Source of the DNA: Oscillospiraceae bacterium
Lineage (GTDB): Bacteria > Bacillota > Clostridia > Oscillospirales > Ruminococcaceae
Assembly: GCA_031280965.1 (NCBI GenBank)
Contig: JAITFZ010000013.1
Coordinates: forward strand, 1-64,000
DNA length: 64,000 nucleotides
Direction of reading: 5' to 3'
The notes under the pieces are model-generated. The model did no database searches and was not told where the DNA came from. It was given only the letters and a program-made list of their open reading frames with translations. Position numbers and translations under genes: made by a program. This document shows positions 1-17,780 of the stretch, piece after piece (within the stretch, counting starts at the first letter, position 1; each line of letters begins with the position of its first letter).

Positions 1-374
1 TTTTTCATCAGGTCAAAAACCTCATCGTCATCAAGCAGAATATCCGCCGCGAATACGTTAGCTTCGTACTCGGGGCGGGTTTTCATGTCGTAGAGCGTGA
101 ATTCCGGCAGTGCACCTGCGGCGGCGAGCTCTCGGTGAAGCGCATCGTGCCCCAATTCATGCGCGATAATAACCCGCCGCTCATACTCGTCAAGATTGGT
201 GTTGACGAAGATGAAGCGGTTTTTATCAATCACCTTATACATACCTTTGAGCTTCACGAAATCGTTGCGCCACCAGACATTAATTCCGATAGCCCGTGCA
301 ATTTTAAACGGCTCGCGGGTGTTACAGCGAGCGAGCAATTTTTTCGCTGCATTATGAATAAATTCTGTAGACAT
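1..374 (-). CDS. ImmA/IrrE-family metallopeptidase (3' end outside window)
   Basis: Read on the minus strand from an ATG at 374, this is an open frame of about 124 codons that runs off the left edge, so its C-terminus is missing. It shows the zinc-protease motif HELGHD near residue 72, followed by a helix containing YEANVFAADILL, which is the conserved ExxA(N)xFAA segment of the ImmA/IrrE family. Family members in integrative elements and prophages cleave an XRE-type repressor to switch the element on; that role is inferred here. A 62-residue gene ends 39 bp upstream and is probably co-transcribed. The ribosome binding site is weak (GCGGTAA). Confidence 0.85.
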   Translation of the reverse strand, partial: MSTEFIHNAAKKLLARCNTREPFKIARAIGINVWWRNDFVKLKGMYKVIDKNRFIFVNTNLDEYERRVIIAHELGHDALHRELAAAGALPEFTLYDMKTRPEYEANVFAADILLDDDEVFDLMK

Positions 375-413
375 TATGATTTACCGCGCTTTTTAACGTA
401 TTTTTTCTTATTT

Positions 414-602
414 TCACTCTTCGCAAACCAATAGGCTTCCTGCAAGGCGTAGAATAGGTATTACCTGTTGTTCCGTTACCGCTACCTTTGGTTCCGTTGC
501 AGGTATGCTTGGGGTTTCTGTGCTGAAGTCGGTGTCAAATGGGTTTTCGTTTCCTCCGCTTTCGATTTCTGCTAAGAAATTGTCCAATGCATTACTTTCC
601 AT
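414..602 (-). CDS. Small acidic protein of unknown function (62 aa)
   Basis: The 62-residue protein begins MESNALDNFLAEIE and is acidic and low in complexity in its first half. It has no recognisable domain, signal peptide or membrane segment. An AAAGGA ribosome binding site lies 7 nt before the ATG, which supports real translation. It lies directly upstream of the ImmA/IrrE gene on the same strand and downstream of the long structured leader at 679-995, so it is the first gene that leader could control. I do not recognise the family. Confidence 0.5.
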   Translation of the reverse strand: MESNALDNFLAEIESGGNENPFDTDFSTETPSIPATEPKVAVTEQQVIPILRLAGSLLVCEE

Positions 603-678
603 GATATTTTTCCTTTCATTGCGGGTTTACCGCAGTTTTATTACTAACCCCATTGGGATATAGCTACTTTTTGGCAAC

Positions 679-719
679 AAAAAAAGCCGCACCTATCCTC
701 AAAAGAAGATGATACGGCT
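679..719 (-). terminator. Rho-independent terminator, second of two in the leader
   Basis: On the minus strand an AGCCG...CGGCT hairpin with an internally bulged TATC/GATA extension is followed by seven T (679-685). It lies between the upstream structured RNA and the 62-residue gene, so it either ends the RNA or acts as an attenuator. Confidence 0.6.
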
Positions 720-758
720 GAGTTGTTACTATGCCTTTACTTTTTTTATTAAGAAATG

Positions 759-798
759 AAAAAAGGGCAGACCTCGCCTAAGAGCGATAATCTGACCC
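759..798 (-). terminator. Rho-independent terminator, first of two in the leader
   Basis: On the minus strand GGGTCAGATTATCGC pairs with GCGAGGTCTGCCC (one bulge), followed by a run of T at 759-764. It would end a transcript of roughly 200-240 nt from the promoter at 1002-1030. Confidence 0.65.
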
Positions 799-995
799 GA
801 GCATTTGCTCTAACCCCGACCAATACAGGGGTTAGAGTCATTTCACGACGATTCCGCCGACAACAGAATAGTACCTGCTGCCGCACCGCAAATCGTAAAT
901 AGGTGTAATAAGCCCGAAAGCCTGATACTGCACCGTTCTTGACCGGGAAACCGGCTTGAAGGCATGAAGCCTTACGAACGTAAATAATAAATCAT
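759..995 (-). ncRNA. Candidate structured small RNA or attenuating leader
   Basis: This 5' region has a near-consensus promoter and a terminator but no convincing reading frame. Several stems are visible: a perfect 10-bp inverted repeat at 808-837 (CTCTAACCCC with a 10-nt loop), a CCGG-TTTC-CCGG hairpin near 940-955, and a GGCTTCATGCC hairpin near 962-972. I do not recognise it as 6S, tmRNA, SRP RNA, RNase P RNA or a known riboswitch. It is either a stand-alone small RNA of the mobile element or a long leader controlling the 62-aa and ImmA/IrrE genes. Confidence 0.5.
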
Positions 996-1001
996 ATATC
1001 T

Positions 1002-1030
1002 ATTATAACATGACAAAAGGCGGTTGTCAA
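1002..1030 (-). promoter_or_regulatory. Sigma-A type promoter
   Basis: On the minus strand there is TTGACA (1025-1030), a 17-bp spacer, and TATAAT (1002-1007): a perfect housekeeping consensus. It drives the structured leader. Confidence 0.85.
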
Positions 1031-1105
1031 TAGGGGTTGAGGGTAAGTTTTCGACAAGGTTTGACAAAGAAAAATGAGAAGCCTAACACTTCCCATTTTT
1101 AATGA

Positions 1106-1297
1106 TTAAATTGCACGCTTATTCAAATTATTGGCAGAAAAAACATTTAATCCATGCTCTGTTATAATCTTTTCGATTTCCTGTGTTTCCTCATATCTTT
1201 TTCTGTTAAGTTCCTGTGTTGAAAGCCCGACTTCACTCAAATGATTTTTCGCTCGAATTTCGTGGATTTCTTTCATCATTTTAGATTCATTCATCAT
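1106..1297 (-). CDS. Small protein paired with PIN toxin, candidate antitoxin (63 aa)
   Basis: The 63-residue, charged and mostly helical protein starts MMNESKMMKEIHEIR. A strong ribosome binding site (GGAGGTGAT) lies 6-8 nt before the first ATG. It begins 11 bp inside the 3' end of the PIN-domain gene, so the two are translationally coupled with the nuclease first. Position and size suggest an antitoxin or partner of the PIN protein; the sequence itself does not match an antitoxin fold I can name. Confidence 0.6.
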   Translation of the reverse strand: MMNESKMMKEIHEIRAKNHLSEVGLSTQELNRKRYEETQEIEKIITEHGLNVFSANNLNKRAI

Positions 1298-1763
1298 ACT
1301 CTATCACCTCCGATGGCGTATGAATGCTCATTTGCTTATATCCCTCGCGTATATTTACGATTCCGGTCATTAGTATAGTTTTACGTTTTACGATATGTTG
1401 AAAATTCCAACTAATGATTATATCCATGCCATAATAGCTTGCTGTGGCTATGTGAACGGCATCATCACGGTATTTTTCGGGTATAATACCTTCTTTAACA
1501 TATAAATCTGCTAAATAATGAATATCGTCGTTAGGCGGTAAAATCACAATATCGTGGATTTTAATTAAATCAAGCAGTTTGCCTTTTAATTCTTGACCGC
1601 ATTTATTAATCTCCGAGATTACGTTATATCCGGTATACGGTTCATACTTTCCTTGCTTGATTTCATCAAACAACTCTATTGTATCGTCCCTTTTATCAGG
1701 CGCATCGTCGGCATAAACAAAATTGATTACACTTGTTTCCATATAGATTTTAGGCTTATACAT
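1287..1763 (-). CDS. PIN-domain ribonuclease, probable toxin
   Basis: Start chosen at the ATG at 1763 (MYKPKIYMETSVINF), preceded by AGGAG at 8 nt. PIN-domain features are visible: the first acidic residue in YMETSVINF (Glu where most family members have Asp), a Glu in VISEINK, an Asp pair in YRDDAVHIATA, and the C-terminal WNFQHI block. PIN toxins are Mg2+-dependent RNases of toxin-antitoxin modules. The downstream overlapping 63-residue gene would be the antitoxin, which is the reverse of the usual vapBC order. The pair has its own promoter and lies inside the degraded mobile region. Confidence 0.8.
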   Translation of the reverse strand: MYKPKIYMETSVINFVYADDAPDKRDDTIELFDEIKQGKYEPYTGYNVISEINKCGQELKGKLLDLIKIHDIVILPPNDDIHYLADLYVKEGIIPEKYRDDAVHIATASYYGMDIIISWNFQHIVKRKTILMTGIVNIREGYKQMSIHTPSEVIEYDE

Positions 1764-1788
1764 CGTGATTCTCCTTATCATTAATTTT

Positions 1789-1817
1789 AGTATAGCATAA
1801 AACCGTTATAAAGTCAA
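1789..1817 (-). promoter_or_regulatory. Promoter of the PIN-toxin pair
   Basis: On the minus strand TTGACT (1812-1817), a 17-bp spacer and TATACT (1789-1794) lie 26 bp before the PIN start codon. Confidence 0.75.
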
Positions 1818-1843
1818 CGGTTTTATACTACTACTGCATTACA

Positions 1844-3394
1844 TCAGATTTTATCAGATATGACCTGCTTTGCGATTTCGTCCAGTCCTAAATCGCTTAG
1901 CCTGTAAACCTTGTCGCAAAACCGTTCCAAACTGCCTTCGGCATCATCACCGAGTAAAATCCCACGAACATTAAAACCTCCGGCTTTCTGTTGTTTGAAA
2001 TATTCCGCAAATTCGTTTGAAATAGTGCAAATCCCGTCCGTAATGAATATTACATCGGCGTTCTCGAAGTTCCCCTCGTTAATAAGCCTGCAAGCCTCTG
2101 CGAGCGGTTTTTCAAAATTCGTTCCACCGCGCATGAAACCCTCGATTGCCGTGATTAAATCTTGTGAGGTATACTCATTTGGCAAAAACAAGTGCGTTTC
2201 GGTTCTTTCGCAGAATCTAACCATTGCGAATTTACGCTTACCTTTGGTTGCGATGTCGAGTAGAGCAAAGGCGAGAGCCTTAGCCCATAAGATGTAATTA
2301 TTATCATTCATGCTCAGACTTTCATCGACGCAGACAATAATATCACCCTGCCCCTTGACCTCCGGTTCGCGCTTGCGGTATTGCTTCAACTTACCCTCAA
2401 TATACTTTTTCATAAAAAGCGGTTGCGTTTCGGGCGTACCGAGCAGAGCCATTTCCGAAGAAAGGCAGAGATTAAGGTTTTTACCAAGCGAAATGTCGTA
2501 CTTCTGCCCTAAACCGTACTCGAAGGAGTTTTTGCGTTTTTCGGCAATCATTTTAATATATCGCCCCATAATACGGCTGATTTCCAGCAGTTTCGGGTTG
2601 CGTCTGACTTTACTCAGCACTTCCTCATTTGCTTTGACGCTTTGCGGGTCGCCGGGGTCGTTCCCCCAAGCATGAATTAAATCATCAGTTTCCTCGGCTT
2701 TTTCCTTTGCCGCCTGAACCGCCTGCTTAACCGCTTCGTTCATCTTCGGTGCGGCTTTAATGAGTGCATCAGCGGATTTCTTTTCCAAATCATTAATCTG
2801 CTGTTCTTTCTTATGTAGCCGGTTTGCCGTCTGTGTGATTTTCTGTTCACGCTTTTCATCGGGTTTAACCTCGTTCTCAGCGCATAAATCCCTTAGTTTT
2901 TCCTTTAACTGTTCGGTTTGCTTATCGAGCGTTTCAAGGGTTTTGGTGTCTTTGAGCGACTCCATCAGCTCCGGCAGGTTCTCGGCGATTTTCTCGGAGA
3001 ACTCCACGGAAGCGTCGTAAGCGGGTAACTCACGTCCTTCGCATACGTTTTTAAGAGCAACAAACTCATCATCAGCGATTGTCTTTTCGATAATCGGTTT
3101 GTTGACACGCCTTGATGTTGCGCTTATTTCTTCATCGCCACGCTGTTTAGGTGATAACGAATAAAATCCTGTGAAAACGTCACGAGCCAGACTGTCGAAC
3201 GTAGATAGTAGAGAGGACGCGTCTTTACAAATCGTTTCTAATTCCGAATCGCCTTTTGAAAGGTCTTTGTAGATTTCATCCTCTAACCGCGTGGACTTAA
3301 AAACCCTGTCGTTCTTATTTTGTTTTCGGTTCCACAGCTTTTTATAACACTCGGAGCCGAAAAAGTCATTATAGGTATTAAAAATGTCACGCAT
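1844..3394 (-). CDS. VWA-domain protein, CoxE/ViaA-like
   Basis: The 516-residue soluble protein has a long, charged N-terminal two-thirds, with a probable coiled coil around residues 150-235, and a C-terminal von Willebrand A domain from about residue 350. The metal-adhesion site is intact: DESLSM, the Thr in RGGTNF, and the Asp in FITDG. Proteins of this layout normally work with a MoxR/RavA-type AAA+ ATPase encoded just upstream. No such ATPase is present here: the upstream stretch is a junction of ssb and parB fragments, so the partner may have been deleted. Function in the element is unknown. Confidence 0.75.
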   Translation of the reverse strand: MRDIFNTYNDFFGSECYKKLWNRKQNKNDRVFKSTRLEDEIYKDLSKGDSELETICKDASSLLSTFDSLARDVFTGFYSLSPKQRGDEEISATSRRVNKPIIEKTIADDEFVALKNVCEGRELPAYDASVEFSEKIAENLPELMESLKDTKTLETLDKQTEQLKEKLRDLCAENEVKPDEKREQKITQTANRLHKKEQQINDLEKKSADALIKAAPKMNEAVKQAVQAAKEKAEETDDLIHAWGNDPGDPQSVKANEEVLSKVRRNPKLLEISRIMGRYIKMIAEKRKNSFEYGLGQKYDISLGKNLNLCLSSEMALLGTPETQPLFMKKYIEGKLKQYRKREPEVKGQGDIIVCVDESLSMNDNNYILWAKALAFALLDIATKGKRKFAMVRFCERTETHLFLPNEYTSQDLITAIEGFMRGGTNFEKPLAEACRLINEGNFENADVIFITDGICTISNEFAEYFKQQKAGGFNVRGILLGDDAEGSLERFCDKVYRLSDLGLDEIAKQVISDKI

Positions 3395-3475
3395 TTTTTT
3401 CTTCCTTTCTTTGAGCGGGGGAACGGGAGCCGTGCCGTGCGATGCACTACACAGCCCCTTCCTCCAGCTATTTAA

Positions 3476-3700
3476 TTAAAATTCGGGGTAGAAGTCATCG
3501 GGCGGTGCGCCGTTGAACTCACCGTCATTCTGCGGAGCCGAGCCCGGGATAGGCGTATACGAATGACCGCCATTATACCCGCCGTTCTGCCGCGGTGCCG
3601 GATAGCCTCCGTTTCCGTTTGCGCCGTTATCGGCTTTCTTTTCGCAAAAATGCGCGCTATCAACAGTAATTTCCACAACAGTACGCTCAGTATTAGTTTA
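3476..3700 (-). pseudogene. ssb: C-terminal fragment of single-stranded DNA-binding protein
   Basis: The frame reads ...ERTVVEITVDSAHFCEKK, matching the last strand of the SSB OB fold. A Gly/Asn/Pro-rich tail follows and ends in the acidic tip PPDDFYPEF, the partner-binding end of SSB. The N-terminal OB-fold half is missing. At about 3690-3700 the sequence passes directly into a truncated parB-like gene in another frame. I read this as a deletion junction. Confidence 0.65.
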
Positions 3701-4302
3701 TCTTCGATGAATGAAAGGTTGTAAGCCGCCATAAACGGAATATTACCCACATCAACGTAAGAGAAAAGCGCAATCCAGTGGGTTGCCAAGCGGATATATC
3801 GAGTTACAGCGGTAGCAGAGAGACCGTTTTCGTTTCCTATTTTTTCTCTGCTGTCTATCTTCTGTCCAATTTGAACAGATGTTTCTTCAACGCCGTCACC
3901 ATGCGAGTTTAGGAGGGTTTCAATCTTTTTTATGAGGTCGGTTCGTTTGCCTTGACTTTTTGTTGTTTCATAATGATTTTTAAGACAAAGACCTCTATCA
4001 TGGTGAGATAACTCTGAAAAACCCCGCTGGATTCTATTTGTTTCTATAACGTAAAGCATAGCGTCTTCTTCGGTGAGGTTCTCTTCGATAACGACGGGTC
4101 CCTTTTTGAGACCTACAGATTTTGCAGCTTCTACGCGGTTATGCCCGCTCAGTATCACATAAACGCTATTACTTTTACGCCAAAGGATAATCGGCATAAG
4201 AATACCGCAGTGTTTTATGCTCTCAACCATTTCATCGAACTTTTTTCCTTTATAAAGCTGGAATTGATGATTTGGGAAACCTTTCATACGACTAAACTCC
4301 AT
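3690..4302 (-). pseudogene. ParB-like nuclease-domain protein, truncated at both ends
   Basis: From the ATG at 4302 the frame encodes a ParB/Srx fold: FPNHQFQLYKG, FDEMVESIKHCGILMPIILW, and the hallmark LSGHNRVEAAKSVGL, followed by an HTH region (GLSATAVTRYIRLA) and NIPFMAAYNLSFIEDK. After about residue 205 the reading frame is out of register with a fragment of ssb and the translation becomes meaningless (it stops at 3472). The 5' end abuts the truncated reverse transcriptase, with only a few residues of ParB lost. In mobile elements such proteins take part in partitioning or regulation. Confidence 0.65.
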
Positions 4303-4981
4303 TTCCAGCTTGCATGTACTGATCCACTTCGTTAAGGTACAAGTTGGCGAACATTTGCGAGGTCAGATTTCCGATCGGCATACCGACCTCGTTTACGCGC
4401 TCGGTTTCGCCGGGTTTTGTTCCTAACGGCAACCCAAACGGTAAGTCGGAGCGGATTATACTTTCCAACAGGTTAAGCAGTTCCCGATCGGCGAACCACC
4501 GGCGCAGTATAACCATTAAGGCGTCGTGGTTAATCCGATAAAAATACTTGCTTATATCCATTTTGAGAAAATACCCGCCGCCGTTGTTTTGGTGCGTGAC
4601 AAGCCGCGCAAAATACTGAACGCGCTTTGCTGCTGAATGTGTGCCGCGCCCGTCGATACACGCGAAACTGTCCTCGATGTAACCTTTGGCGAACAGGGGG
4701 TTAATAATGCGGTAGATCGCCCATTGCGCCACCCTGTCGCGGAACGGTAAAGCCATAACAAGCCGCTTTTTCGGTTCGTAAACGTAAAACTCCCGATATT
4801 CGCCGACTTTATAAGTCCCGTTCAGCAGGTCGTCGCGCAGGTCGAAAATGTTATCCTCCGCATATTCGGAAAAGGCAAGCACCTCATTTCTGAAACGCTT
4901 GCCTTTTGCCGCAAACCGATAAGCCGTGTAAAGATTTTCAAAGTTTACAATTTGATCCCATAACCCTTTAATCGGTTTCAT
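4292..4981 (-). CDS. DGR reverse transcriptase, truncated before the catalytic YxDD box
   Basis: The 229-residue protein has the N-terminal half of a retroelement reverse transcriptase: fingers/palm segments (ALPFRDRVAQWAIYRIINPL, GRGTHSAAKRV), the first catalytic Asp in FLKMDISKYFYRI (residues 138-150), and IGNLTSQ at 203-209. The I/V/L-GxxxSQ motif in place of QGxxxSP is the diagnostic of DGR reverse transcriptases. The protein ends NEVDQYMQAGNGV, exactly where the family continues into the YMDD-containing strand and thumb. The sequence switches to a parB-like gene instead. Family members are usually well over 300 residues. The product is therefore expected to be inactive. The start has an AAAGGA site 7 nt upstream of the ATG. 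Confidence 0.9.
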   Translation of the reverse strand: MKPIKGLWDQIVNFENLYTAYRFAAKGKRFRNEVLAFSEYAEDNIFDLRDDLLNGTYKVGEYREFYVYEPKKRLVMALPFRDRVAQWAIYRIINPLFAKGYIEDSFACIDGRGTHSAAKRVQYFARLVTHQNNGGGYFLKMDISKYFYRINHDALMVILRRWFADRELLNLLESIIRSDLPFGLPLGTKPGETERVNEVGMPIGNLTSQMFANLYLNEVDQYMQAGNGV

Positions 4982-5185
4982 CGGTCGTTCCTTTCAAAAT
5001 GCCGCACTTAACGGATTTCAACGCGGAGCGTTTACTTTCGGCATCGCGGCTGTTTTATTTTTCGCCGTGTTTTCCCCCGCCGCTGCTGCGGCAAGGTACA
5101 CGACACCGGCGCGGAAGCAAACTCCTTTTTCTTCCCTGTGCTGAAAACAAACCCCGTAGGTTTGTAATATCTGACTATGAGAAAG
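4982..5185 (-). ncRNA. DGR RNA spacer between TR and reverse transcriptase
   Basis: This 204-bp stretch has no supported gene. In characterised DGRs the RNA immediately 3' of TR folds with TR and is needed for priming and cDNA synthesis, so it is assigned as the spacer of the TR RNA by position. A GC-rich segment around 5070-5125 can form hairpins on the minus strand. I cannot define the RNA ends. Confidence 0.5.
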
Positions 5186-5296
5186 AGCGGCGCGGAAGCC
5201 GATGTTCGTACTGACATTAGATCGAGCGTTGTTCAAGTTCAATGCGAACACCCCCGCTTGAGCAGCATTATTCCATCTGCCACCACGGATCGGTAT
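5186..5296 (-). repeat. DGR template repeat (TR)
   Basis: This 111-bp block aligns without gaps to 5786-5896. Read on the coding sense it would translate IPIRGGRWNNAAQAG..., rich in AAY (Asn) codons, the typical TR composition. All 12 differences from VR are at TR adenines: plus-strand T at 5203, 5206, 5212, 5218, 5230, 5238, 5243, 5258, 5269, 5272, 5278 and 5296. None of the 85 non-adenine positions differs. The last site lies at the block edge. The GC-rich end at 5186-5202 is identical in both copies and matches the position of the initiation-of-mutagenic-homing sequence. Confidence 0.93.
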
Positions 5297-5348
5297 CGGT
5301 TACAGCTTGCCCCCGAAATAAAAAGGCTTACCCTTTTATTTGCTTTGA

Positions 5349-5705
5349 TTATTTCGGCGGGTTGTCGGCGACTTGTTTTATCCAACCGCCGAGCATTTTC
5401 CCGATTTCGGCAACCAAACCCGACCATATCTCGTATTTTTTCGGTGGTAAAAAACCGAGTTCATGCGCGAGCCGCAGGTAATGGCGCAGTTTCATAAGTT
5501 CGACGTCCATTTCCTGTAACGTCGTCTTTTTATGGTATTTTTTGCTCGCCTCGATCGCCCTTTCAAGTACGGCGTTCATACACCGTTTAATATCGACGAC
5601 CATTGCGAACTTTTCGCTTTTCGGAAACTGCGCCAACGCGGGGTAAGCGTATTTCGCCATATCGTGCAGTTTGGTTAAAATAGTGAGTTGTCCGTATTCG
5701 ATCAC
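5349..5705 (-). CDS. avd: DGR accessory variability determinant (Avd), four-helix bundle protein
   Basis: Start assigned to the GTG at 5705 (IEYGQLTILTKLHDM), which has an AAAGGAG site 8 nt upstream; an open frame upstream to 5762 lacks such support. The 118-residue protein is helical and basic, with YPALAQFPKSEKFAMVVDIKRCM, the KKTTLQEMDVELMKLRHYLRLAHELG helix and the terminal GWIKQ. This is the pattern of Avd and the related S23-type four-helix proteins. Avd forms a pentameric barrel that binds the reverse transcriptase and TR RNA and is required for cDNA synthesis. It sits between the variable protein gene and TR. Confidence 0.85.
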   Translation of the reverse strand: MIEYGQLTILTKLHDMAKYAYPALAQFPKSEKFAMVVDIKRCMNAVLERAIEASKKYHKKTTLQEMDVELMKLRHYLRLAHELGFLPPKKYEIWSGLVAEIGKMLGGWIKQVADNPPK

Positions 5706-5730
5706 AATATAAACTCCTTTACAGGACTCA

Positions 5731-5750
5731 CCCCCGCCTAACGGCGGGGG
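5731..5750 (-). promoter_or_regulatory. DGR target-site hairpin downstream of VR
   Basis: A perfect 8-bp GC stem (CCCCCGCC/GGCGGGGG) with a 4-nt loop lies 35 bp beyond the VR end, in the gap between the variable protein stop codon and avd. Hairpins or cruciforms of this size just after VR are needed for target recognition in the BPP-1 DGR. No T-run follows on either strand, so it is not a terminator, and there is no copy next to TR, as expected. Confidence 0.75.
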
Positions 5751-5770
5751 TACAAGGCACAAGTTTCAAT

Positions 5771-6781
5771 TTACAGGGAAACAAAAGCGGCGCGGAAGCC
5801 GAGGTGCGTACCGACATAAGATCGAGCGTGGTTCAAGGTCAAGGCGAACACCCCCGCCTGAGCAGCATGATGCCATCCGCCACCACGGATCGGTACACGT
5901 TCGCCGGTCAGCGTCGCCCAAAAATGATCGGTTTCGTAGTCGGCGGCGGTCATATCGGGTTCGGGTATCAAACCGAGAGCCTGTAACAACGCCGCGCCCG
6001 CGCCGGTCGCTGCCGGGGTAGTGGTGACGGCGTGGAAACCTACGCTTGTTTGCGTGTATTTGAGCGTTCCCGCCGTATTCGGTGCGACAAGCGTACCGTC
6101 GGGCATAATGGCTTGCCACAACGAACTCGCGGCAGTTACGGGGTTGTTCCAGTCGGCGGCGTCATTGTTGCGGAGTATCTGAATTTCGCCGTCCATTAAA
6201 CGCAGACCTGCGCCCCACTCCCACACGTTGCCGTTAAGGTCGGCAATACCCGCCTCGGTGTTATCGTGATACCACGAAACGGGGCCGCTGCCGGTCGCGG
6301 TGCGAGCGATCCTGCCGTCACTTTCAAACGAGGTCGGCAGGGCTTTTTGAGGCAGGGAAAGTTCTAAAATGTCCTTACCCCAGTTGTTATTACCGCGAGG
6401 CATAAATCCGTTCTTTTTGCACCACGGCGCGACCGCCGCATATTCGGCTTGCGTCATTAAGTGCCATCCGGGGCCTTTGTTCCGGCAGAATATCCCGGCA
6501 TTGTCAAAGTTTACGGAGTGGTGGGGGTCTTGCATCGGCAAGCTGTACGCCCTGCCGTTGTTTACGACGTTTAAGTATTTACTTATGAAAATGCTGTCGC
6601 GCTCTACGCCGTTGACGATAAACGCGGGATGGGTGCTGTCCGGGCCGCCGGGGATAACGTCGGAAATTTTGAATTTCGGAATACGCACCATGACGGACGG
6701 ATCGCCCACGTCGTCGTACAAAAGTACGTTGTTCGGCGCGGCAATTTGCAGCGCGAGGTTCGTTAAATCATAGTTAGGCAT
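5771..6781 (-). CDS. DGR variable protein with C-type-lectin/FGE-sulfatase fold
   Basis: The 336-residue protein starts at an ATG with AAAGGAG upstream. The N-terminal half contains IFISKYLNVV, GPGWHLMTQAEYAAVAPWCKKNG and MPRGNNNWGKD; the LNGNVWEW motif of the formylglycine-generating-enzyme/C-type lectin fold is at 182-189. These are typical of DGR-diversified proteins in Firmicute prophages. The last 41 residues hold the variable region. Relative to the template, residues 296, 302, 304, 305, 315, 318, 322, 324, 326 and 327 are changed, giving a surface of His, Tyr, Thr and Gly around invariant scaffold (RGG, QAGVFAL, LGFRAA). It probably binds a ligand on a host cell or is displayed on a particle. 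No signal peptide or membrane segment is visible. Confidence 0.92.
   Translation of the reverse strand: MPNYDLTNLALQIAAPNNVLLYDDVGDPSVMVRIPKFKISDVIPGGPDSTHPAFIVNGVERDSIFISKYLNVVNNGRAYSLPMQDPHHSVNFDNAGIFCRNKGPGWHLMTQAEYAAVAPWCKKNGFMPRGNNNWGKDILELSLPQKALPTSFESDGRIARTATGSGPVSWYHDNTEAGIADLNGNVWEWGAGLRLMDGEIQILRNNDAADWNNPVTAASSLWQAIMPDGTLVAPNTAGTLKYTQTSVGFHAVTTTPAATGAGAALLQALGLIPEPDMTAADYETDHFWATLTGERVPIRGGGWHHAAQAGVFALTLNHARSYVGTHLGFRAAFVSL
5786..5896 (-). repeat. DGR variable repeat (VR)
   Basis: This is the 3' end of the variable protein gene, 600 bp from TR. On the coding sense the changes from TR are A to C at seven sites, A to G at four and A to T at one. Ten alter an amino acid (mostly Asn to His, Tyr or Thr) and two are silent (CAA to CAG, GCA to GCC). 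The identical GC-rich end at 5786-5802 is the likely initiation-of-mutagenic-homing site. The gene continues 12 coding bases (FVSL) and a stop past VR. Confidence 0.93.
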
Positions 6782-6790
6782 AATTTATAA

Positions 6791-7272
6791 ACTCCTTTCG
6801 AGATAGTCGGGCATCGGGGCGTTTACCGTTCTGCCGGTGTCGGCGGCGGTATTACCGGCATGGGCGGCGAATACATAATAATCGACGACCCGCTTAAAAA
6901 CCGCGAGGACGCTGCAAGCACGGTTATTCGTGACAAGCTGTGGGAATGGTACACCTCGACGCTTTACACCCGCCTCGAAAAAGACGGGTGCATCCTGCTT
7001 ACAATGACGCGGTGGCACGAGGACGACCTCGCCGGTCGGTTGTTAAGGCTTGCCGAAACAGACCCCGCCGCCGATCAATGGGAGGTGCTGAACTTCCCCG
7101 CCATTGCCGAAAAGATACGGCACACGGAGGATATACGCGACGAGGGCGATGCGCTGTGGGTTGACAAATACCCCTGCTCGCGCCTTGACACGATAAAGGC
7201 GGCGATCGGCGCGTATGACTGGAACGCACTATATCAGCAACGCCCCGCGCCGACTGAGGGCGGTCTGTTCGG
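6791..7272 (+). pseudogene. Internal fragment of phage terminase large subunit
   Basis: Read in the frame of 6860, the sequence from about 6797 gives FEIVGHRGVYRSAGVGGGITGMGG, then the Walker B stretch YIIIDDPLKN, LTMTRWHEDDLAGRLL and ALYQQRPAPTEGGLF. This is the second half of the terminase ATPase domain. The P-loop part upstream and the nuclease domain downstream are absent. The 5' break lies within the ribosome-binding region of the divergent DGR variable protein gene, and the 3' break leads in frame into a SHOCT protein. Terminases package DNA into phage heads, so this marks a former prophage. Confidence 0.8.
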
Positions 7273-7699
7273 CACAACGGTAAAAATACCTTACGGGGAT
7301 ATTATCGACGTGCAGCTACAAACCGAGGAGCAGGTTTCCAAAGATGTAACCTTGACGCGGCTTTTACTTATCGGCGTTTTGGCTTTCGGCGCAAAGAAAA
7401 AGACAAAAACGGTTAATTATTGTTTGGTGATTGAATATAAAAAAGACGGCATACAAACAAAAGGCGTATTCAGCGGCGAAAAGTGCAATAAACTTTACAG
7501 CGAGATCGTAACGTGGAGGCAAAAAGCCGCCGAAAAAGCCGCGAAAAACGCGCCGGTCGAAATACCCACCGCCGCCGCGCCGGTTTCCGATCAGCCCGAC
7601 GCTGCCGCCGAAATTGCAAAATTTAAGTCCCTTTTAGATAGAGGTGCGATAACGCAGGACGAATACGATGCCAAGAAAAAACAACTTTTGGGGTTGTAA
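6860..7699 (+). CDS. Chimeric ORF: terminase fragment fused to SHOCT-domain protein
   Basis: From the ATG at 6860 the frame is open for 279 codons, but it joins two unrelated parts. Residues 1-137 are terminase large subunit; from GTTVKIPYGDIIDVQL onward it is a small bacterial-PH-like protein ending in a SHOCT domain (IAKFKSLLDRGAITQDEYDAKKKQLLGL-type tail, where the short helical pair ends most SHOCT proteins). An Ala/Pro-rich linker precedes the SHOCT part. No ribosome binding site precedes 6860, which lies inside terminase sequence, so the chimera may not be expressed as one protein. I read it as a deletion product. Confidence 0.6.
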   Translation: MGGEYIIIDDPLKNREDAASTVIRDKLWEWYTSTLYTRLEKDGCILLTMTRWHEDDLAGRLLRLAETDPAADQWEVLNFPAIAEKIRHTEDIRDEGDALWVDKYPCSRLDTIKAAIGAYDWNALYQQRPAPTEGGLFGTTVKIPYGDIIDVQLQTEEQVSKDVTLTRLLLIGVLAFGAKKKTKTVNYCLVIEYKKDGIQTKGVFSGEKCNKLYSEIVTWRQKAAEKAAKNAPVEIPTAAAPVSDQPDAAAEIAKFKSLLDRGAITQDEYDAKKKQLLGL

Positions 7700-7740
7700 T
7701 TTGTGAAAACTATTGAAATAGGGGGCGGTGGTGTGCTATA

Positions 7741-9324
7741 ATGAAAGGTAAACAGAGCCAAAACAAAGACAAAACAACCCAACCGCCACGCAAAGCGGTT
7801 ATATATGCTCGCTATTCGTCAGCCGGTCAGCGCGAGGAAAGTATCGAGGGGCAGTTGCGCGATTGTTACCAGTTCGCAAAGCAGAACAACCTAAACGTGA
7901 TCGGGGAATATATCGACCGGGCGTTGTCCGGCAGGTCTGACAAGCGACCCGACTTCCTGCGTATGATAAAAGACAGCGAGCGCGGACATTTCGAGGTCGT
8001 TATAACGTGGAAACTGGATCGGTTCACCCGTAGCCGTTACGACTCCGCAATGTATAAGGCGCGATTGAAAAAGAACGGCGTACAGCTTCTTTTTGCAAAA
8101 GAAGAAATACCCGAAGGCCCGATGGGTATTGTTATCGAAAGTTTTATGGAGGGGTTCGCTGAATATTACAGCGCGAACCTCAGCGAAAACGTAAAGCGCG
8201 GTTTTTATGACAGCGCACTCGACTTGAAAACGCTCGGTCAGACTGTCATCGGCTATAAAAAAGGCGCAGACGGTCGCTTTGCGATTGACGAGGGACAAGC
8301 TGCCGTGGTTCGCCGGATATTTGAGGAATACGCGGCGGGTGAACGTGCAAAGGACATATACGCAAGGTTGAACGCCGAGGGACATCGTACCAGTCGAGGC
8401 GGTTTGTTTAACAAAAATAGCATACGCCGGATATTACAAAACGAAAAATATATCGGTGTTTATGAATACGAGGATATAAGGGACGAAAACGGCATCCCGC
8501 CCATTGTCGATCGGGTGCTTTTCGCAAGGGTACAAGATATGGTGGAAAAAAATCACGCCTCCCCAAACCAAAAGGTGCAAACCTTTTTACTGACGGGGAA
8601 AATAAAATGCGGACATTGCGGGGAGGATATGACCGGCGACGGCGGCACGAGCCGCACCGGGAAAACCTACTCTTACTATACTTGTAATAAACGAAAGTAT
8701 AACAAGACCTGCGACAAGGAACGCGCCCCCAAAGAATGGATCGAGAACCTTGTCATTGAAAAACTGGTTGACCTGCTTAACGAGGATGGTTTTATTGAAA
8801 GGATTGCCGATGAAGCCCTCGAATATATGGAGGAACGGCGCGACACTACGATCCTTGACGCTTTGGAAGCGCGAAAAAAGGATAACGAAAAAGCGATAAA
8901 AAACGTAATGGATGCCATTGAGCAGGGCATAATAACGCCGACAACAAAGTCGCGGCTCGTTGAATTAGAGTCCGATAAAGTGAAAATTGAAAAAGGCATC
9001 GCAAAAGAAAAGATTAACAATCCCCACCTTGACCGTGATCAGCTTCGTTTCTTTTTAGAACGGTACAGGGACGCCGATATGGGAGAAGAAAAACACCGCG
9101 AAAGGCTTTTGAGGACATTCCTAAACTCAGTCTTTATATATGACACCGATGACGACGACCCGGACGACCCCAAAAAAGGAAAACTCGTCTTGTGTATGAA
9201 CTACACGGACGAACACGGTAAACTTAGTAAGATAACCCTTTCGATTATGGAAAAAGCCGTATTTGACGGGGTTTCGGGCGGTTCGAGTTTTGAGCCATTC
9301 GTTGTGTTTGGCGCATTGCGCTAA
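7741..9324 (+). CDS. Large serine recombinase (integrase)
   Basis: The 527-residue protein has an N-terminal resolvase domain with the catalytic Ser in YARYSSAGQ (about residue 26), and conserved LDRFTRSRYD and EGFAEYYSANLSENV. A recombinase domain (GYKKGADGRFAIDEGQAAVVRRIFEEY) follows, then a zinc ribbon (CGHCGEDM ... YTCNKRKYNKTC) and a C-terminal coiled coil. Such enzymes integrate and excise prophages, ICEs and cassettes at short att sites. It is the last gene of the mobile region before conserved chromosomal genes, so one attachment site is expected just downstream. A GGTGGTG run about 8 nt before the ATG may be the ribosome binding site. Confidence 0.93.
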   Translation: MKGKQSQNKDKTTQPPRKAVIYARYSSAGQREESIEGQLRDCYQFAKQNNLNVIGEYIDRALSGRSDKRPDFLRMIKDSERGHFEVVITWKLDRFTRSRYDSAMYKARLKKNGVQLLFAKEEIPEGPMGIVIESFMEGFAEYYSANLSENVKRGFYDSALDLKTLGQTVIGYKKGADGRFAIDEGQAAVVRRIFEEYAAGERAKDIYARLNAEGHRTSRGGLFNKNSIRRILQNEKYIGVYEYEDIRDENGIPPIVDRVLFARVQDMVEKNHASPNQKVQTFLLTGKIKCGHCGEDMTGDGGTSRTGKTYSYYTCNKRKYNKTCDKERAPKEWIENLVIEKLVDLLNEDGFIERIADEALEYMEERRDTTILDALEARKKDNEKAIKNVMDAIEQGIITPTTKSRLVELESDKVKIEKGIAKEKINNPHLDRDQLRFFLERYRDADMGEEKHRERLLRTFLNSVFIYDTDDDDPDDPKKGKLVLCMNYTDEHGKLSKITLSIMEKAVFDGVSGGSSFEPFVVFGALR

Positions 9325-9460
9325 ACCCTTGATTATGTCTGCGTTTATCGCGGGTATAAATTTTGTTTTACGAATGTCAGCGGGGAATCGTGTTTTCTCG
9401 CATGAGGTTAGAAATTGGATTGGGAACAATACAAATAATCTCGAATAAACACAAAGAAAC

Positions 9461-9488
9461 AGCCTGTCAGATTAGATACTGACAGGCT
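9461..9488. terminator. Hairpin between integrase and chromosomal genes
   Basis: A perfect 10-bp stem (AGCCTGTCAG/CTGACAGGCT) with an 8-nt loop lies 4 bp beyond the stop of the minus-strand 90-aa gene and downstream of the plus-strand integrase. T-runs are poor on both sides, so it is a probable bidirectional terminator of modest strength. The gap 9325-9492 around it is where an att site would be expected. Confidence 0.6.
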
Positions 9489-9492
9489 TCAA

Positions 9493-9765
9493 TTATTTCG
9501 TCTTATCAAGCCATGTGTATGCCATTTCCAGCGCCTCATAAAGACTGTTTCTGTCGCTGTTTTTTACTATCATCTGACTTGCGTCAACGTCCTCGGCGGT
9601 CTGCATAAGCACAACCTTAACTTTATTAGCCACTTCAAGTTCTTTGATTTTGCGCGTCGCCATAATCGTAATCATACAAACGTAATCGTCTGACATGTTC
9701 CCGTAATAAATCTGCCGTCCTTTTCTGACGAGCGGGTAGCCTTTATAGGTGAAAAAATCTGCCAT
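9493..9765 (-). CDS. Conserved hypothetical protein (90 aa)
   Basis: The small soluble protein begins MADFFTYKGYPLVRKG, has a central ISxMATRK-like strand-helix region and ends in ALEMAYTWLDKTK. I recall similar short proteins in many clostridial genomes, but no function is known to me. A good ribosome binding site (AAAGGAG) lies before the ATG. It is the last gene of the minus-strand block and is followed by the hairpin at 9461-9488. Confidence 0.7.
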   Translation of the reverse strand: MADFFTYKGYPLVRKGRQIYYGNMSDDYVCMITIMATRKIKELEVANKVKVVLMQTAEDVDASQMIVKNSDRNSLYEALEMAYTWLDKTK

Positions 9766-9819
9766 AATTAAAATATCTCCTTTATGTTGTTACAGTAATG
9801 CCGCCTATACAGCAGGCGC

Positions 9820-11292
9820 TTACCATGAAATTATAACCGGTTCGCCGTTTAAGAATAATTCGATGTTTTGTGCAAGCCGTGTTAAATACATGGCGCGGGT
9901 AATAAATCTCGGTTCGCCGTCTATGACTATAACGCTGTTCATGCCGCCGGAATCGAAAAACTCTATAATTTCATCGGACCTATTCGGGTCGCGGTATCTG
10001 AAAGTATACCGCGCCAAGAACGGCATATCCGCAACGTCTTCCGGCTCGCCGTCGTAGAGGGCATCGGCGTTTACAGATATGATATAAATATATAACTGCT
10101 TAAATTCGGCAGTGTCGGCAAGCACACCGTCAAGGAAGTATTCCTCGTCGTCCCGCCCTGTTCCCGTTAAGCGGAAGTTCAGGGTGCGTTCAGCCGTTTC
10201 TATTATCAGTTCATCAACCGAATAAATCATAGGGCGCTGGAACGCAGGCGCCATAATGCCGCCCGCATCGAAATTAAGCCAACTCAGCTCTTCAAGCCCG
10301 AAAACGTATAAAACCTCGGGATAATTGCTGTGGATTGCATAAAAGCCGGATAAAACATCTTCGCCTTCGTCATCAACGGTGTAGTATCTGCCGCCGACAG
10401 TGAAAGTTGACGTTTTGCCGTTTACGGTCATTTCGACTGCGGCGGTGGGATTATTGAAACCGTCTGCGAATTCGTGCGGAAGTTCTTCGCCGACGAAAGC
10501 GGCTTTGAACGCTGTAAGTCCGAACATTCCTTCAAGCAAGTCCGCGCCTTTTGTGAAGTCTATCTGCACCTGAACCGGCTCGACAAGTATATATCTGCTG
10601 GTGATTCTGTCTTCGGCCGCCGCATTCGGGTTGGGTATTATAACATGCCGCTCACGCTCGGCTCTGTCGATTACGAGCCTTTCCATATCGGGTTGTCCGG
10701 CTGTCATATAATCCGGAGTTACTTCAAGGGAAACATAAAACAAGCTCGGCTCTTTTATATAGTCCACGAGATACGTCCATACCACATACACGCTGTTTTC
10801 GCCCGCTATGCGTACATATGTCATATTCTCAACTGTTGGGGTTTCATCGCCGATATAAAGCTCCAGCGTTTCGCCGTTCCGGAAAATCGCAAACGCCCAT
10901 GCCGCCGTATCGCCAAGCCCGTATTGTTCAAAGTCTTTGGCGTCTTCCTCCACGGCTTCTCTCGCCCAAAGCCCGGATATATAACGTTCGGAATTATGCA
11001 GTTTCGTGAAGCTCAGCGGTGCGCCGAGCAATGCTTCAATCCCGAGAGCGCCCGTATCAGTCCGCTCTAAAGTATACGCTTCATGTTCGTTAAATACGCT
11101 TAAACTCAGCAAATCCTCGGCTTCAAGCTGTGTGAAGTGAACGCGGTTTGCCATTGGTTCGGTCGGGTCTTCTTCTTTAACGACAGGCGGCGATTCCTGC
11201 GTCAGCACGAGGACTAATATCGCGGCTGTTAAAATGGCAAGCCCCGCACATGAGAATATTAACGTTCTTGTTTTTTTGCTTAATTTTTTCAA
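9820..11292 (-). CDS. DUF4340-domain membrane-anchored protein
   Basis: The 490-residue protein has a single N-terminal membrane anchor (residues 10-29, LIFSCAGLAILTAAILVLVL) and a large extracytoplasmic part made of repeated beta-rich units (LEAEDLLSLSVFNEHEAYTLERTD..., YTSRYILVEPVQVQI). This is the DUF4340 pattern. It follows the gldG-like gene by 19 bp and belongs to the same transcription unit; DUF4340 proteins commonly accompany Gld-type ABC transporters. Start is TTG at 11292 with CAGGAG 8 nt upstream. The substrate of the system is unknown. Confidence 0.8.
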   Translation of the reverse strand: MKKLSKKTRTLIFSCAGLAILTAAILVLVLTQESPPVVKEEDPTEPMANRVHFTQLEAEDLLSLSVFNEHEAYTLERTDTGALGIEALLGAPLSFTKLHNSERYISGLWAREAVEEDAKDFEQYGLGDTAAWAFAIFRNGETLELYIGDETPTVENMTYVRIAGENSVYVVWTYLVDYIKEPSLFYVSLEVTPDYMTAGQPDMERLVIDRAERERHVIIPNPNAAAEDRITSRYILVEPVQVQIDFTKGADLLEGMFGLTAFKAAFVGEELPHEFADGFNNPTAAVEMTVNGKTSTFTVGGRYYTVDDEGEDVLSGFYAIHSNYPEVLYVFGLEELSWLNFDAGGIMAPAFQRPMIYSVDELIIETAERTLNFRLTGTGRDDEEYFLDGVLADTAEFKQLYIYIISVNADALYDGEPEDVADMPFLARYTFRYRDPNRSDEIIEFFDSGGMNSVIVIDGEPRFITRAMYLTRLAQNIELFLNGEPVIISW

Positions 11293-11311
11293 AACTTATA
11301 CTCCTGTATAT

Positions 11312-12922
11312 TTACCTGTATCTTCTTTTGAAGAATACTACCAAACCCGTTGTAATAATAATCAAAGGTATAATAATTACGAAAGCAATCGCAATGCCGT
11401 TAGCCTGTCCCACGGTTATTTCAAAGTGAGCCGGACGGAAAGATTTCGGCATTATGAGCGCGCCTATATCGCTTCTTCCGCTTATATCGTTGAAGATGTT
11501 AAGGAGAAGCCGCGCATTTGAGAATTGCCCGCCTTCAATCACCCAAGCATCAAATATAGACGGCGTACCGAAAGCAATCACATGGCTCGTGAACCGGTCA
11601 AGTCCCTCAAAGCGCGTCTTTCTGCTCATAGCTACGGCGTTCATAAGCCGGAGCGTAAATTCCCAGTCTTCTGCTTCTTCCTCTGTAAGCGGAACGTAAA
11701 ACGAGCCGTCATAGCTTACGAGCAGAGATGAAGTTGAGGTGGAACCCGAAACTTCAAAAAGCAGTGTTATGGGGCGAATCGTTGTTGCTAAGACCGAACC
11801 TTCGGCAATCCCCTCTGAAAAAGGCCCGCCGACCATTCTTATAAATTGCATGAAGCCGTACTCGTCATTCGGGAGCGCGTAGTTAACGTTAGACTGCGAG
11901 ATGAAGCCGTGTTCAGCCCGCATTCCCCACTCCTCCAGGAATTCATCAAGAACGGGAGTATCGGGCATTTCACGGGCTGGGAGGTAAAGCAGTGTCTTTC
12001 CGTACATGCCGCCGTTGTCAAGCCACGTATCTACATTAGCGCGGGCGCTGACGGTATAATCGAAAGCAGGTGAGCAGATGACTAAAAAATCAATACCGGG
12101 GTCGATTTCGGCGGTCATAAGCAAATCAATCTCCTCGGTCACATAACCGTTAGCAATTAAAATTTCCATCATTGCTTCATATGCGATTTCGCCGAAGCCG
12201 TTCGCAAATGCCACTCTGACCGGCGTTAAATCGGAAACCGACATAATCGCCGACAGGAACGCCTGTTCCGTCGCCGCGCTTGCGTCCCTTTCAATCATAT
12301 GTCCGAAGCCGTATGCAGCCGCTTCCCAAGCCTGTTCATCGGAGATTCTTTCACCGTTAAAATAGAATTCTTCCATGAAGTAATCCGATTGGCTCACGAC
12401 CTTAAAGCGTCCTGTTCTCTCCGATTCAATTACAATATCGGTGTCCGTGAGGTTTCCGCCGTATTTTGCAACGAAAGCAGGGTTTGTCAGCCTGTTTACA
12501 AAAGTAATCGTGAAGCTTCTGTTGGCTTCTTTGAACCTCTGCGCGATTTCATACACCTGCGAAAAATAGGTGTCAGGGTTTGTGAAGTTCTCCTCACGGC
12601 TGCAGAAGTAGAAATTAATCGTATCATCAAGCGCGGAAAGATACGCTGTCGTGCTTTGTTCAATGCTGAAAAGCTTGCGCTCGGTCAGGTCAAACCGCAA
12701 ATTAAAGCGGTTGATGAGCATAGTGAAAAGCACATTGACCAACACTGCCGCCGTTAAAAACACTACAATAATAACAAGCGAGTAGCCGCCGAATTTGAGC
12801 TTGCGGCGGAAGTTGCTTATGCTTTGGGAAATCGATGTTTCCCCGTCTGCTCCGGCGGTTTCGTCAAGCGTTTCCTCCGCCACGGCTTCCGGATTATTTA
12901 AGTTTTTATTTTCTTCTGACAT
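11312..12922 (-). CDS. GldG-family protein, auxiliary component of ABC transporter
   Basis: The 536-residue protein has a short acidic cytoplasmic N-terminus, a membrane helix at about 45-72 (YSLVIIVVFLTAAVLVNVLF), and a long extracytoplasmic region with NLRFDLTERKLFSIEQSTTAYLSAL. That segment is the signature of the 'ABC-type uncharacterised' GldG domain. A C-terminal membrane helix (IAFVIIIPLIIITTGLVVFF) and a basic tail close it. It is encoded downstream of the permease and ATPase genes of the same exporter. In Bacteroidetes the Gld proteins serve gliding; in clostridia the role is unknown. Confidence 0.85.
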   Translation of the reverse strand: MSEENKNLNNPEAVAEETLDETAGADGETSISQSISNFRRKLKFGGYSLVIIVVFLTAAVLVNVLFTMLINRFNLRFDLTERKLFSIEQSTTAYLSALDDTINFYFCSREENFTNPDTYFSQVYEIAQRFKEANRSFTITFVNRLTNPAFVAKYGGNLTDTDIVIESERTGRFKVVSQSDYFMEEFYFNGERISDEQAWEAAAYGFGHMIERDASAATEQAFLSAIMSVSDLTPVRVAFANGFGEIAYEAMMEILIANGYVTEEIDLLMTAEIDPGIDFLVICSPAFDYTVSARANVDTWLDNGGMYGKTLLYLPAREMPDTPVLDEFLEEWGMRAEHGFISQSNVNYALPNDEYGFMQFIRMVGGPFSEGIAEGSVLATTIRPITLLFEVSGSTSTSSLLVSYDGSFYVPLTEEEAEDWEFTLRLMNAVAMSRKTRFEGLDRFTSHVIAFGTPSIFDAWVIEGGQFSNARLLLNIFNDISGRSDIGALIMPKSFRPAHFEITVGQANGIAIAFVIIIPLIIITTGLVVFFKRRYR

Positions 12923-12936
12923 TTAACCTACCTCAT

Positions 12937-12964
12937 TCATTGTTCATTGTTCATTGTACATTGT
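12937..12964. repeat. Short tandem heptamer (ATTGTTC)
   Basis: Three to four imperfect copies of ATTGTTC lie in the 45-bp gap between the permease and gldG-like genes. A related low-complexity AACAATGAATAA stretch occurs at 29731-29750 after the PBP1A gene. This is probably slippage-prone filler. Confidence 0.5.
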
Positions 12965-12967
12965 CCG

Positions 12968-13690
12968 TTACGCCCAGCGCCTGCGTTCAAGCACTCTCAC
13001 GGTAAGGAACAGGAAAACCGCAATTCCCGTAATAAAGAACAGGATATTCGGCAGTGCAAAAATACCGAGTGTGAATTGCCTGTAGCGGTCGAAAACCGAT
13101 ATGCTTCTGAGCGCATTCGGTATAAACTGGAAGAAATCGTTTACAAACTTAGAAACTTCATTTGCGAGCGGGTTAAATGCAAACATGACTAAATTCAAAA
13201 ACATACTTCCGATAGCCGCTATCATTTGGTTTTCGGTCAGCGAGGACACGAAAAGCCCGAGCGCGACATAAATACCGCCGAGCAATACAATTCCCGCAAA
13301 GTTCCCCCACAGCGTCATCCATGAAACCGTAGTGAAAAAAGAAAGCACGATTCCGTAAACGGGGAGTACACATACGCCCATAATAAAAACCGCGTATGCC
13401 GACAGGAACTTACCGACCACAATCGCTGTAAGGCTAACGGGCGCGGTCAGTAAAAGCTGGTCAACTTTTTGTCTTTTGTCTTCCGACATAAGCCGCATGG
13501 TCAGCACAGGCACGAAAATTAATATAACAAAAAACATCAGCATGAATACCGGCGATAAATCCGCGCTGCCCCGCAACAGCACAAGTCCGTGAAGAATGAA
13601 CCCCGAAATAAGCATACAAGCCGCTATGAAAACGTAGCCGACAGGCGAGGTGAAATATGCGCCGAGTTCTCTTTTGAATGTAGCTAACAT
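12968..13690 (-). CDS. ABC-2 type permease, GldF-like
   Basis: The 240-residue integral membrane protein has about six hydrophobic segments. It begins MLATFKRELGAYFTSPVGYVF, the standard start of GldF-type ABC-2 permeases, and contains MRLMSEDKRQKVDQLLLTAPVS, the cytoplasmic coupling loop. It pairs with the ATPase encoded immediately upstream (stop at 13691 adjoins this start) and with the GldG-like and DUF4340 proteins downstream. Confidence 0.88.
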   Translation of the reverse strand: MLATFKRELGAYFTSPVGYVFIAACMLISGFILHGLVLLRGSADLSPVFMLMFFVILIFVPVLTMRLMSEDKRQKVDQLLLTAPVSLTAIVVGKFLSAYAVFIMGVCVLPVYGIVLSFFTTVSWMTLWGNFAGIVLLGGIYVALGLFVSSLTENQMIAAIGSMFLNLVMFAFNPLANEVSKFVNDFFQFIPNALRSISVFDRYRQFTLGIFALPNILFFITGIAVFLFLTVRVLERRRWA

Positions 13691-14656
13691 TTATTTCTCC
13701 TCCTTGTTTTTCATGTTTCCGTAAATATCTCCGGTTACGAGTTTCAGGAATACTTCCTCAAGCGTAAGCTCGTTTGACTTCATCATCAGGAGCGGATAAT
13801 TGCGTGACGACAGCTTCTTAAAAATTTCGCGCCGCACGTCCTCGCCTTTTTTCGGCTCAATCTCATATTCAAAGACGCCTTTTTCCGTCTCGCGCAAGGG
13901 GATAACGCGCTTGATTTGATGTATGCTTCCGAGCAGTTTCTTTGTTTCGATTTCGCTTCCCTCAACGCGAATTCTGAGCGAGGCGTTTTCCGAAAGCCCC
14001 GCCGCAAGGGTTGAGGCTTTTTCGTTGGCGACGATTCTGCCTTTGTTTATAACGACAATACGGTCGCACACCGCCTGAATCTCCGGCAGTATATGCGAGG
14101 AAAATATAACCGTGTGGTTCTTGCCGAGCTTTTTTATAAGTGAGCGTATTTCGATAATCTGTTTAGGGTCAAGCCCGACGGTAGGCTCGTCTAATATAAG
14201 CGTCCCCGGATTCCCCACGAGCGCCTGAGCCAACCCCACTCTTTGGCGGTAGCCTTTGGAGAGGTTGCGGATTGCGCGGCTCCGGACATCGGAGATTTTC
14301 ACTAAATCGCATATTTCGTTAAGGTGGGAATTACGCGGCAGTCTGCACTTTTTGAGATTGTATACAAACTTCAGATAACCGTCCACCGTCATGTCGGGGT
14401 AAAGCGGGGGGTATTCGGGCAGATAGCCTATTTGCCTTTTAGCGGCAATCGGGTCTTCAAGCACGTCAATCCCGTCAATCAGGGCGCGTCCCGAAGTTGA
14501 CGAGATATATCCTGTCAGAATATTCATAGTCGTGCTTTTTCCCGCGCCGTTCGGGCCGAGGAAGCCGAGAATCTCGCCCTCTTCGGCGCAGAACGAAATA
14601 TCGTCCACTGCCTTATTACTGCCGTAATTTTTTGAAAGATTTTGTACTTCTATCAT
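13691..14656 (-). CDS. ABC transporter ATP-binding protein, GldA-like
   Basis: The 321-residue protein has all nucleotide-binding motifs: Walker A GPNGAGKST, Q-loop region GYLPEYPPLYPDMTV, signature LSKGYRQRVGLAQAL, Walker B LILDEPTVGLDP and the switch His in VIFSSHIL. A C-terminal extension of about 100 residues ends in ELTLEEVFLKL, as in drug/lipid ABC-2 exporters. It heads the transporter gene set (ATPase, permease, GldG-like, DUF4340) and follows gltX on the same strand after a 44-bp gap. Confidence 0.92.
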   Translation of the reverse strand: MIEVQNLSKNYGSNKAVDDISFCAEEGEILGFLGPNGAGKSTTMNILTGYISSTSGRALIDGIDVLEDPIAAKRQIGYLPEYPPLYPDMTVDGYLKFVYNLKKCRLPRNSHLNEICDLVKISDVRSRAIRNLSKGYRQRVGLAQALVGNPGTLILDEPTVGLDPKQIIEIRSLIKKLGKNHTVIFSSHILPEIQAVCDRIVVINKGRIVANEKASTLAAGLSENASLRIRVEGSEIETKKLLGSIHQIKRVIPLRETEKGVFEYEIEPKKGEDVRREIFKKLSSRNYPLLMMKSNELTLEEVFLKLVTGDIYGNMKNKEEK

Positions 14657-14681
14657 TTTTTTACCTTTCGTTCTTTTTTGC

Positions 14682-17763: not shown

Positions 17764-17780
17764 AGTTTAATAGCTCACAC

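Follow-up and report, generated by a model that had tools for sequence, protein, structure and literature searches.

Diversity-generating retroelements (DGRs) are described as enriched in Firmicutes and in three mainly viral clades, and as occurring mostly in phages whose predicted hosts are gut bacteria (Roux et al., PMC8144416). They have been reported in 10 of 18 Faecalibacterium prausnitzii phages (PMC5883640) and in four of five active Faecalibacterium prophages (PMC11792537), and phrog_2889, an Avd and a reverse transcriptase (RT) are listed for a prophage of Clostridium clostridioforme (PMC11318856). Broken copies are also on record. DGRs with an inactivated RT and an intact pair of variable region (VR) and template region (TR) that differ only at adenines were reported in 2012 and judged very recent, one of them in Ruminococcus gnavus ATCC 29149 (PMC3521204), and cyanobacteria are reported to hold an RT-only remnant as well as TR–VR homology without an RT (PMC7517822). 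Here we describe a DGR at 4292–6781, on the minus strand, of a 64,000-nucleotide stretch of an Oscillospiraceae bacterium draft genome (GCA_031280965.1, contig JAITFZ010000013.1, positions 1 to 64,000; hereafter the window, to which all coordinates refer). It is a genuine phage-type DGR in a bacterial genome, very probably inactivated recently by truncation of its RT and lying within a deleted prophage. A first, sequence-only reading had recognized the DGR and held that few are described from such clostridial settings, a view that the passages cited above contradict: inactivated-RT DGRs and Faecalibacterium prophage DGRs are already known, and this locus adds one more copy.

The element and its closest described relatives

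The cassette consists of the following features.

5771–6781, minus strand: DGR target (variable) gene, predicted to encode a C-type-lectin protein of the formylglycine-generating enzyme (FGE) type; 336 amino acids, apparently intact (PF03781, phrog_2889 and PDB 5VF4 matches)
5786–5896, minus strand: VR, 111 nt, codons 296–332 of the 336-amino-acid target (from alignment)
5786–5802, minus strand: block like an initiation of mutagenic homing (IMH) sequence at the VR 3′ end, 17 nt identical to TR 5186–5202 (from alignment)
5730–5751, no strand assigned: hairpin after the VR, 9-bp stem ACCCCCGCC, loop GTTA in the sense orientation, 34 nt past the VR end
5349–5705, minus strand: avd, 118 amino acids, GTG start at 5705 (PF22296, NF033474, PDB 4dwl and 8ub7_B matches)
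5186–5296, minus strand: TR, 111 nt with 26 adenines (from alignment)
5001–5187, minus strand: putative TR–RT spacer RNA, Rfam RF02921 (RT-14), 57.8 bits against a gathering score of 48.1, full model 1–144
4292–4981, minus strand: RT fragment, 229 amino acids, motifs through IGNLTSQ and no YxDD; homology ends at about 4310

Several described elements share this arrangement. Faecalibacterium phage Lagaffe (MG711461; PMC5883640, PMC11792537) has the same order of target, avd, TR and RT, its FGE-type target being 50% identical over query residues 1–334 and its RT 52% identical. Unlike the window, with its 229-amino-acid RT fragment, Lagaffe has an annotated RT of 437 amino acids and an intact tail operon. 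Its VR is described as more variable in reads (PMC5883640), and two VRs are described for it where the window has one (PMC11792537); in the limited Lagaffe_CP data of the latter source, there is no activity signal. Bacillus phage BalMu-1 (KP063903) is alike in the order of target, avd and RT and in carrying an RT-14 RNA before the RT, with identities of 53% (RT), 48% (Avd) and 42% (target), but its annotated RT is full-length and stands in a complete phage record. Bordetella phage BPP-1 (mtd, avd, TR, brt; PDB 8UB7, 4DWL) shares the architecture, the homology of Avd and RT and, as described in PMC3240598, adenine mutagenesis and a hairpin after the VR. It differs in that brt has YMDD at 213–216 (PMC3240598), in that its target, Mtd, is described with further domains and in the hairpin loop, which is given as GAAA in BPP-1 and is GTTA here. 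The Thermus aquaticus prophage protein TaqVP (PDB 5VF4, PMC6328139), a comparison that concerns the target only, is homologous to it over nearly the whole length (E 2.3e-103 with a 32-sequence profile built from the window's protein and those of 31 relatives among 61 loci). Finally, the RT-inactivated DGRs of DiGReF (PMC3521204) also combine a broken RT with a VR/TR pair differing only at A; the breaks described there are nonsense mutations, frameshifts and transposon insertion, whereas the window's RT is joined to a fragment of another gene.

Adenine-only differences between TR and VR

Re-alignment upheld the gap-free match of TR and VR over 111 nt, at an offset of exactly 600 bp, on which the sequence-only reading had built its case. 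The two copies differ at 12 positions (in coding sense, A to C at seven, A to G at four and A to T at one), and, as that reading had also stated, all 12 fall on the 26 coding-sense adenines of the TR and none on the other 85 positions (P = 2.4e-9). The twelfth difference, at position 5296, lies on the outermost base of the repeat and perhaps should be left out; with only the 11 internal differences, P is 1.0e-8, where the earlier hand figure was near 1 in 10 million. The first codon base is the site of nine of the 12 differences, and 10 change an amino acid, the other two being silent. These differences are the signature of past adenine-specific mutagenesis. Across the genome, a search with the TR returned only itself, the VR and four matches of 15–24 nt at E 0.06 or worse, and a search with the target protein returned itself and the TR only; neither revealed a second VR. 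In IMG/VR, there was no exact match for a near-identical TR/VR pair or for the join between RT and ParB described below.

Target protein, Avd, spacer RNA and hairpin

The remaining parts stand in the order target, Avd, TR, spacer RNA, RT and resemble those of complete elements. The sequence-only reading had named the target, Avd and the hairpin and judged the gene order fitting; family matches bear out the target and Avd. The target matches PF03781 (FGE-sulfatase, 1.4e-7) and, over residues 3–335 (333 residues), phrog_2889 (2.6e-121), and we found 61 relatives of it in viral contigs. The VR lies at its C-terminus. The protein structure in 5VF4 is named TaqVP and described as having a C-type-lectin fold (PMC6328139), and by homology the window's target, which had been called C-type-lectin-like, would share that fold. 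Avd, an accessory protein of many DGRs, matches PF22296 (2.2e-32) and scores 121.5 bits with NCBIfam NF033474, whose curated cut-off is 80. A promoter scan of 4200–7800 gave four promoter-like sites where 3.2 were expected; none lies upstream of the target gene on its own (minus) strand.

RT-14, for which a literature search found no paper, is probably the DGR spacer RNA, given its position between TR and RT. It lies directly upstream of the RT in seven of the 11 relatives scanned; the other four (L013, L049, L060 and L114) had no match at the gathering score.

The predicted hairpin was found at 5730–5751, and the DNA fold of 5715–5790 has z = -5.2. To place it among other elements, we counted hairpins with a stem of at least 8 bp, at least six G/C and a distance of at most 90 nt from the VR, using the 87 loci with a TR/VR-like pair of at least 100 nt (120 were scanned and 94 had some pair; the loose pair criteria let in false pairs, and several of the loci nearly duplicate one another). 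Such a hairpin follows the VR in 33 of the 87 loci, the window included, compared with four of 435 control stretches; the other 54 loci have none that passes. Its offset ranges from 21 to 52 nt across the 33. The hairpin expected of a DGR has a GC-rich stem of 7–10 bp and a GRNA loop. The loop reads G(A/G)NA in 32 of the 33, the sole departure from GRNA being the window's own GTTA; a TATC loop occurs in three loci whose stems, at 7 bp, fall short of the cut-off. In BPP-1, swapping the loop from GAAA to CTTT is reported to bring activity near background (PMC3240598). By analogy with the same system, the block at 5786–5802 would play the role of the IMH (as in PMC3240598).

Truncation of the reverse transcriptase

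The RT is where the locus departs from a complete DGR. The fragment is readily recognized (phrog_1423, 1.3e-88; best PDB match 8ub7_A, 5e-34), and the motif 4 pattern of the DGR clade, (I/V/L)GxxxSQ, is present as IGNLTSQ, as the sequence-only reading had noted; the whole RT that it assumed is instead a 229-amino-acid fragment without YxDD, joined to a fragment of a ParB-like gene. In an alignment with eight relatives, likeness holds through IGNLTSQMFANLYLNEVDQYM, and the relatives reach RYMDD about 12 residues further on, whereas the window does not. Homology stops at about residue 224, in comparison with an RT of 358 amino acids in relative L008. The change of sequence takes place within a few bases: RT extends to about 4310, and ParB is clear from about 4311 downward (the tblastn row for ParB begins at 4338, its first residues being unlike ParB). 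Among the 48 relatives fetched by RT similarity (10 further RT loci from the genome-set search were left out of this count), YxDD lies in the open RT frame in 44, and in the other four it lies in the same locus past a frame break, insertion or stop.

We looked for the missing half elsewhere. In the 64-kb window, tblastn with the RTs of six relatives yielded no match to the C-terminal part below E 0.15. Across the genome (2.01 Mb in 36 contigs, 98.79% complete, 0.03% contaminated), searches with PF00078 and phrog_1423 at E<=1 returned the window RT and no second one, and the 133 C-terminal residues of the L008 RT found no C-terminal half, their best match, of 13.6 bits (E 0.09) on contig 18, being taken as chance. 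The known cis and trans parts of a DGR are present except the catalytic half of the RT. In BPP-1, an RT with YMDD changed to SMAA is described as the RT-deficient control (PMC3240598), and inactivation of bRT, Avd or TR is reported to bring repair down to about 1e-9 (PMC12875486).

Of 149 genomes, the window's included, 10 contain a match to the RT at E 1e-20 or lower; the other 148 related genomes searched held no near-identical RT, the best being 52% identical. This sparse distribution points to acquisition of the locus by this lineage.

Insertions interrupt the RT gene in some relatives. A mobile element of this kind is excluded for the window, where the RT runs straight into ParB-like sequence. 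In L023, a group II intron at 3609–5474 (RF01999, RF00029; maturase at 4150–5394) splits the DGR RT just past the YMDD codons. A tandem trio of tyrosine recombinases is inserted in the DGR RT of L027 (6561–10003) and of L032 (1881–5300), two RT lineages from Clostridia and Bacilli metagenome-assembled genomes. The insertion point falls in the same codon of motif 4 in both, between IG and N(Y/M)TSQ. We take the trio to resemble the recombinase-in-trio element; a search combining that name with DGR terms gave no paper among the matches listed, and 361 pattern matches to relatives of the trio in IMG/VR yielded none that was confirmed. RT-14 is present in L023 and L027, and not in L032.

Genomic setting

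Neighbouring sequence on both sides of the cassette consists largely of pieces of phage-type genes.

3476–3694, minus strand: probable C-terminal tail of a single-stranded DNA-binding protein (SSB), a weak match (phrog_44, 4.6e-4; no Pfam match)
3697–4311, minus strand: ParB-like gene fragment lacking both ends, equivalent to about residues 50–254 of an open frame of 351 amino acids from a same-genus genome
6833–7270, plus strand: middle part of a terminase large subunit (phrog_38, 2.9e-36, profile positions 392–528 of 760)
7268–7699, plus strand: C-terminal part of a SHOCT-domain phage protein (phrog_888, 5.7e-19, positions 115–271 of 271; PF09851, 4e-10)
7741–9324, plus strand: large serine integrase, 527 amino acids (PF00239, PF07508, PF13408; phrog_95, 2.2e-118)

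About 50 residues are absent from the beginning of the ParB fragment and about 100 from its end; the SSB-like tail comes next, with a junction at about 3697. On the other side, the terminase fragment adjoins the upstream side of the target gene and points away from it, and it continues in frame into the SHOCT fragment as a single open reading frame (6860–7699). Gene fragments are thus joined end to end at 3476–4311 and at 6833–7699, with one join in frame. An intact set of prophage structural genes was not found: the integrase and an intact target are present, the terminase is only a fragment, and no other structural gene could be named among 16 overlapping stretches searched in 1–9800. Host sequence begins by 9493, where a small gene (9493–9765) stands beside its partner (9820–11292) in five of the six relatives fetched. 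The left border of the island was not found, the contig itself starting at window position 1, and no tRNA lies within 1–20000. The setting is best read as an island of deletions around the DGR, left from a deleted prophage.

Discussion

That the DGR was inactivated recently is supported by the adenine-only TR/VR differences and by the remaining parts, which have homologues or counterparts in complete DGRs; it is also supported by the stop in RT homology, the failure to find a C-terminal half and the fragmentary state of neighbouring phage genes. With no difference at any of 85 non-adenine sites, the halt in mutagenesis is not old, an observation that does not demonstrate activity; and as the RT is cut before its catalytic motif, the element as assembled should be inactive.

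The ancestral element would have been a phage tail-type DGR of the kind found in Bordetella BPP-1, T. aquaticus TaqVP and Faecalibacterium phage Lagaffe, which diversified a C-type-lectin protein, probably for host recognition. On the model of BPP-1, RT and Avd would have bound an RNA carrying the TR and a structured spacer; its reverse transcription, error-prone at adenines, would have yielded a cDNA that was written into the VR beside the hairpin. Later, a deletion or rearrangement may have cut the RT gene just before YxDD and fused it to the ParB fragment, a loss that would have taken place within a prophage island already made up mostly of gene fragments. Diversification has probably stopped, and the VR would now be frozen.

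Three points weigh against this account. No non-adenine difference has yet arisen between TR and VR, and a long-dead element would have some. The spacer RNA matches at full length, and the avd and target frames are open, as in a live DGR. Moreover, the genome is a draft of 36 contigs in which the DGR lies only 4–7 kb from a contig start, so that a missing piece outside the assembly or a chimeric join is possible.

This last point underlies the main risk to the reading that we favour, a false assembly join: the DGR may be intact and active in the cell, the RT truncation and the chain of fragments being artefacts of chimeric assembly close to a draft contig's end. The closeness to the contig start, the purely adenine-located differences and the oddity of finding unrelated gene fragments cleanly joined several times inside 5 kb all fit such a chimera. 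Nevertheless, a genome with this completeness and contamination shows no second RT or C-terminal piece at the thresholds used. Of the four joins, moreover, that between terminase and SHOCT leaves one reading frame unbroken, although a chimera formed at random would have no need to preserve it; we regard a chimera as unlikely.

Less probable still is a non-autonomous DGR, in which the catalytic RT was lost and Avd, spacer RNA, TR and VR stay under selection as a serviceable cassette, diversified in trans by the RTs of incoming DGR phages. The presence of the cis parts and the lack of non-adenine decay between TR and VR speak for it. No second DGR RT was found in the genome, however, other RTs found reach at most 55% identity to the window's, and a search of IMG/VR with a 41-nt TR/VR pattern that allowed any base at the adenines gave no match; we hold this arrangement to be highly improbable. 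A chance repeat or a duplicated C-terminal domain would also give an ordinary 89% repeat, which TR and VR are, but we reject it as next to impossible given P = 2.4e-9 for the adenine-only differences and an Avd, RT, hairpin and RT-14 all in standard order.

Read as a DGR that was recently inactivated by RT truncation, the locus leaves the known DGR mechanism unchanged. Its value is as one more such case, useful for the rate at which TR/VR pairs decay after RT loss, and as a warning against taking an adenine-biased TR/VR pair for proof of an active element.

Other genes near the contig start

Two further loci lie between the contig start and the SSB-like tail. At 1844–3394, a 516-amino-acid protein has a VWA domain (phrog_24053, 2.9e-57); 98 other related genomes, searched for the ancestral setting of its gene, gave no match at E 1e-30. 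At 1106–1781 lies a pair of small genes, the larger without a Pfam or PHROG match and the smaller without a match of weight, which by eye resemble an antitoxin with a toxin of the PIN type.

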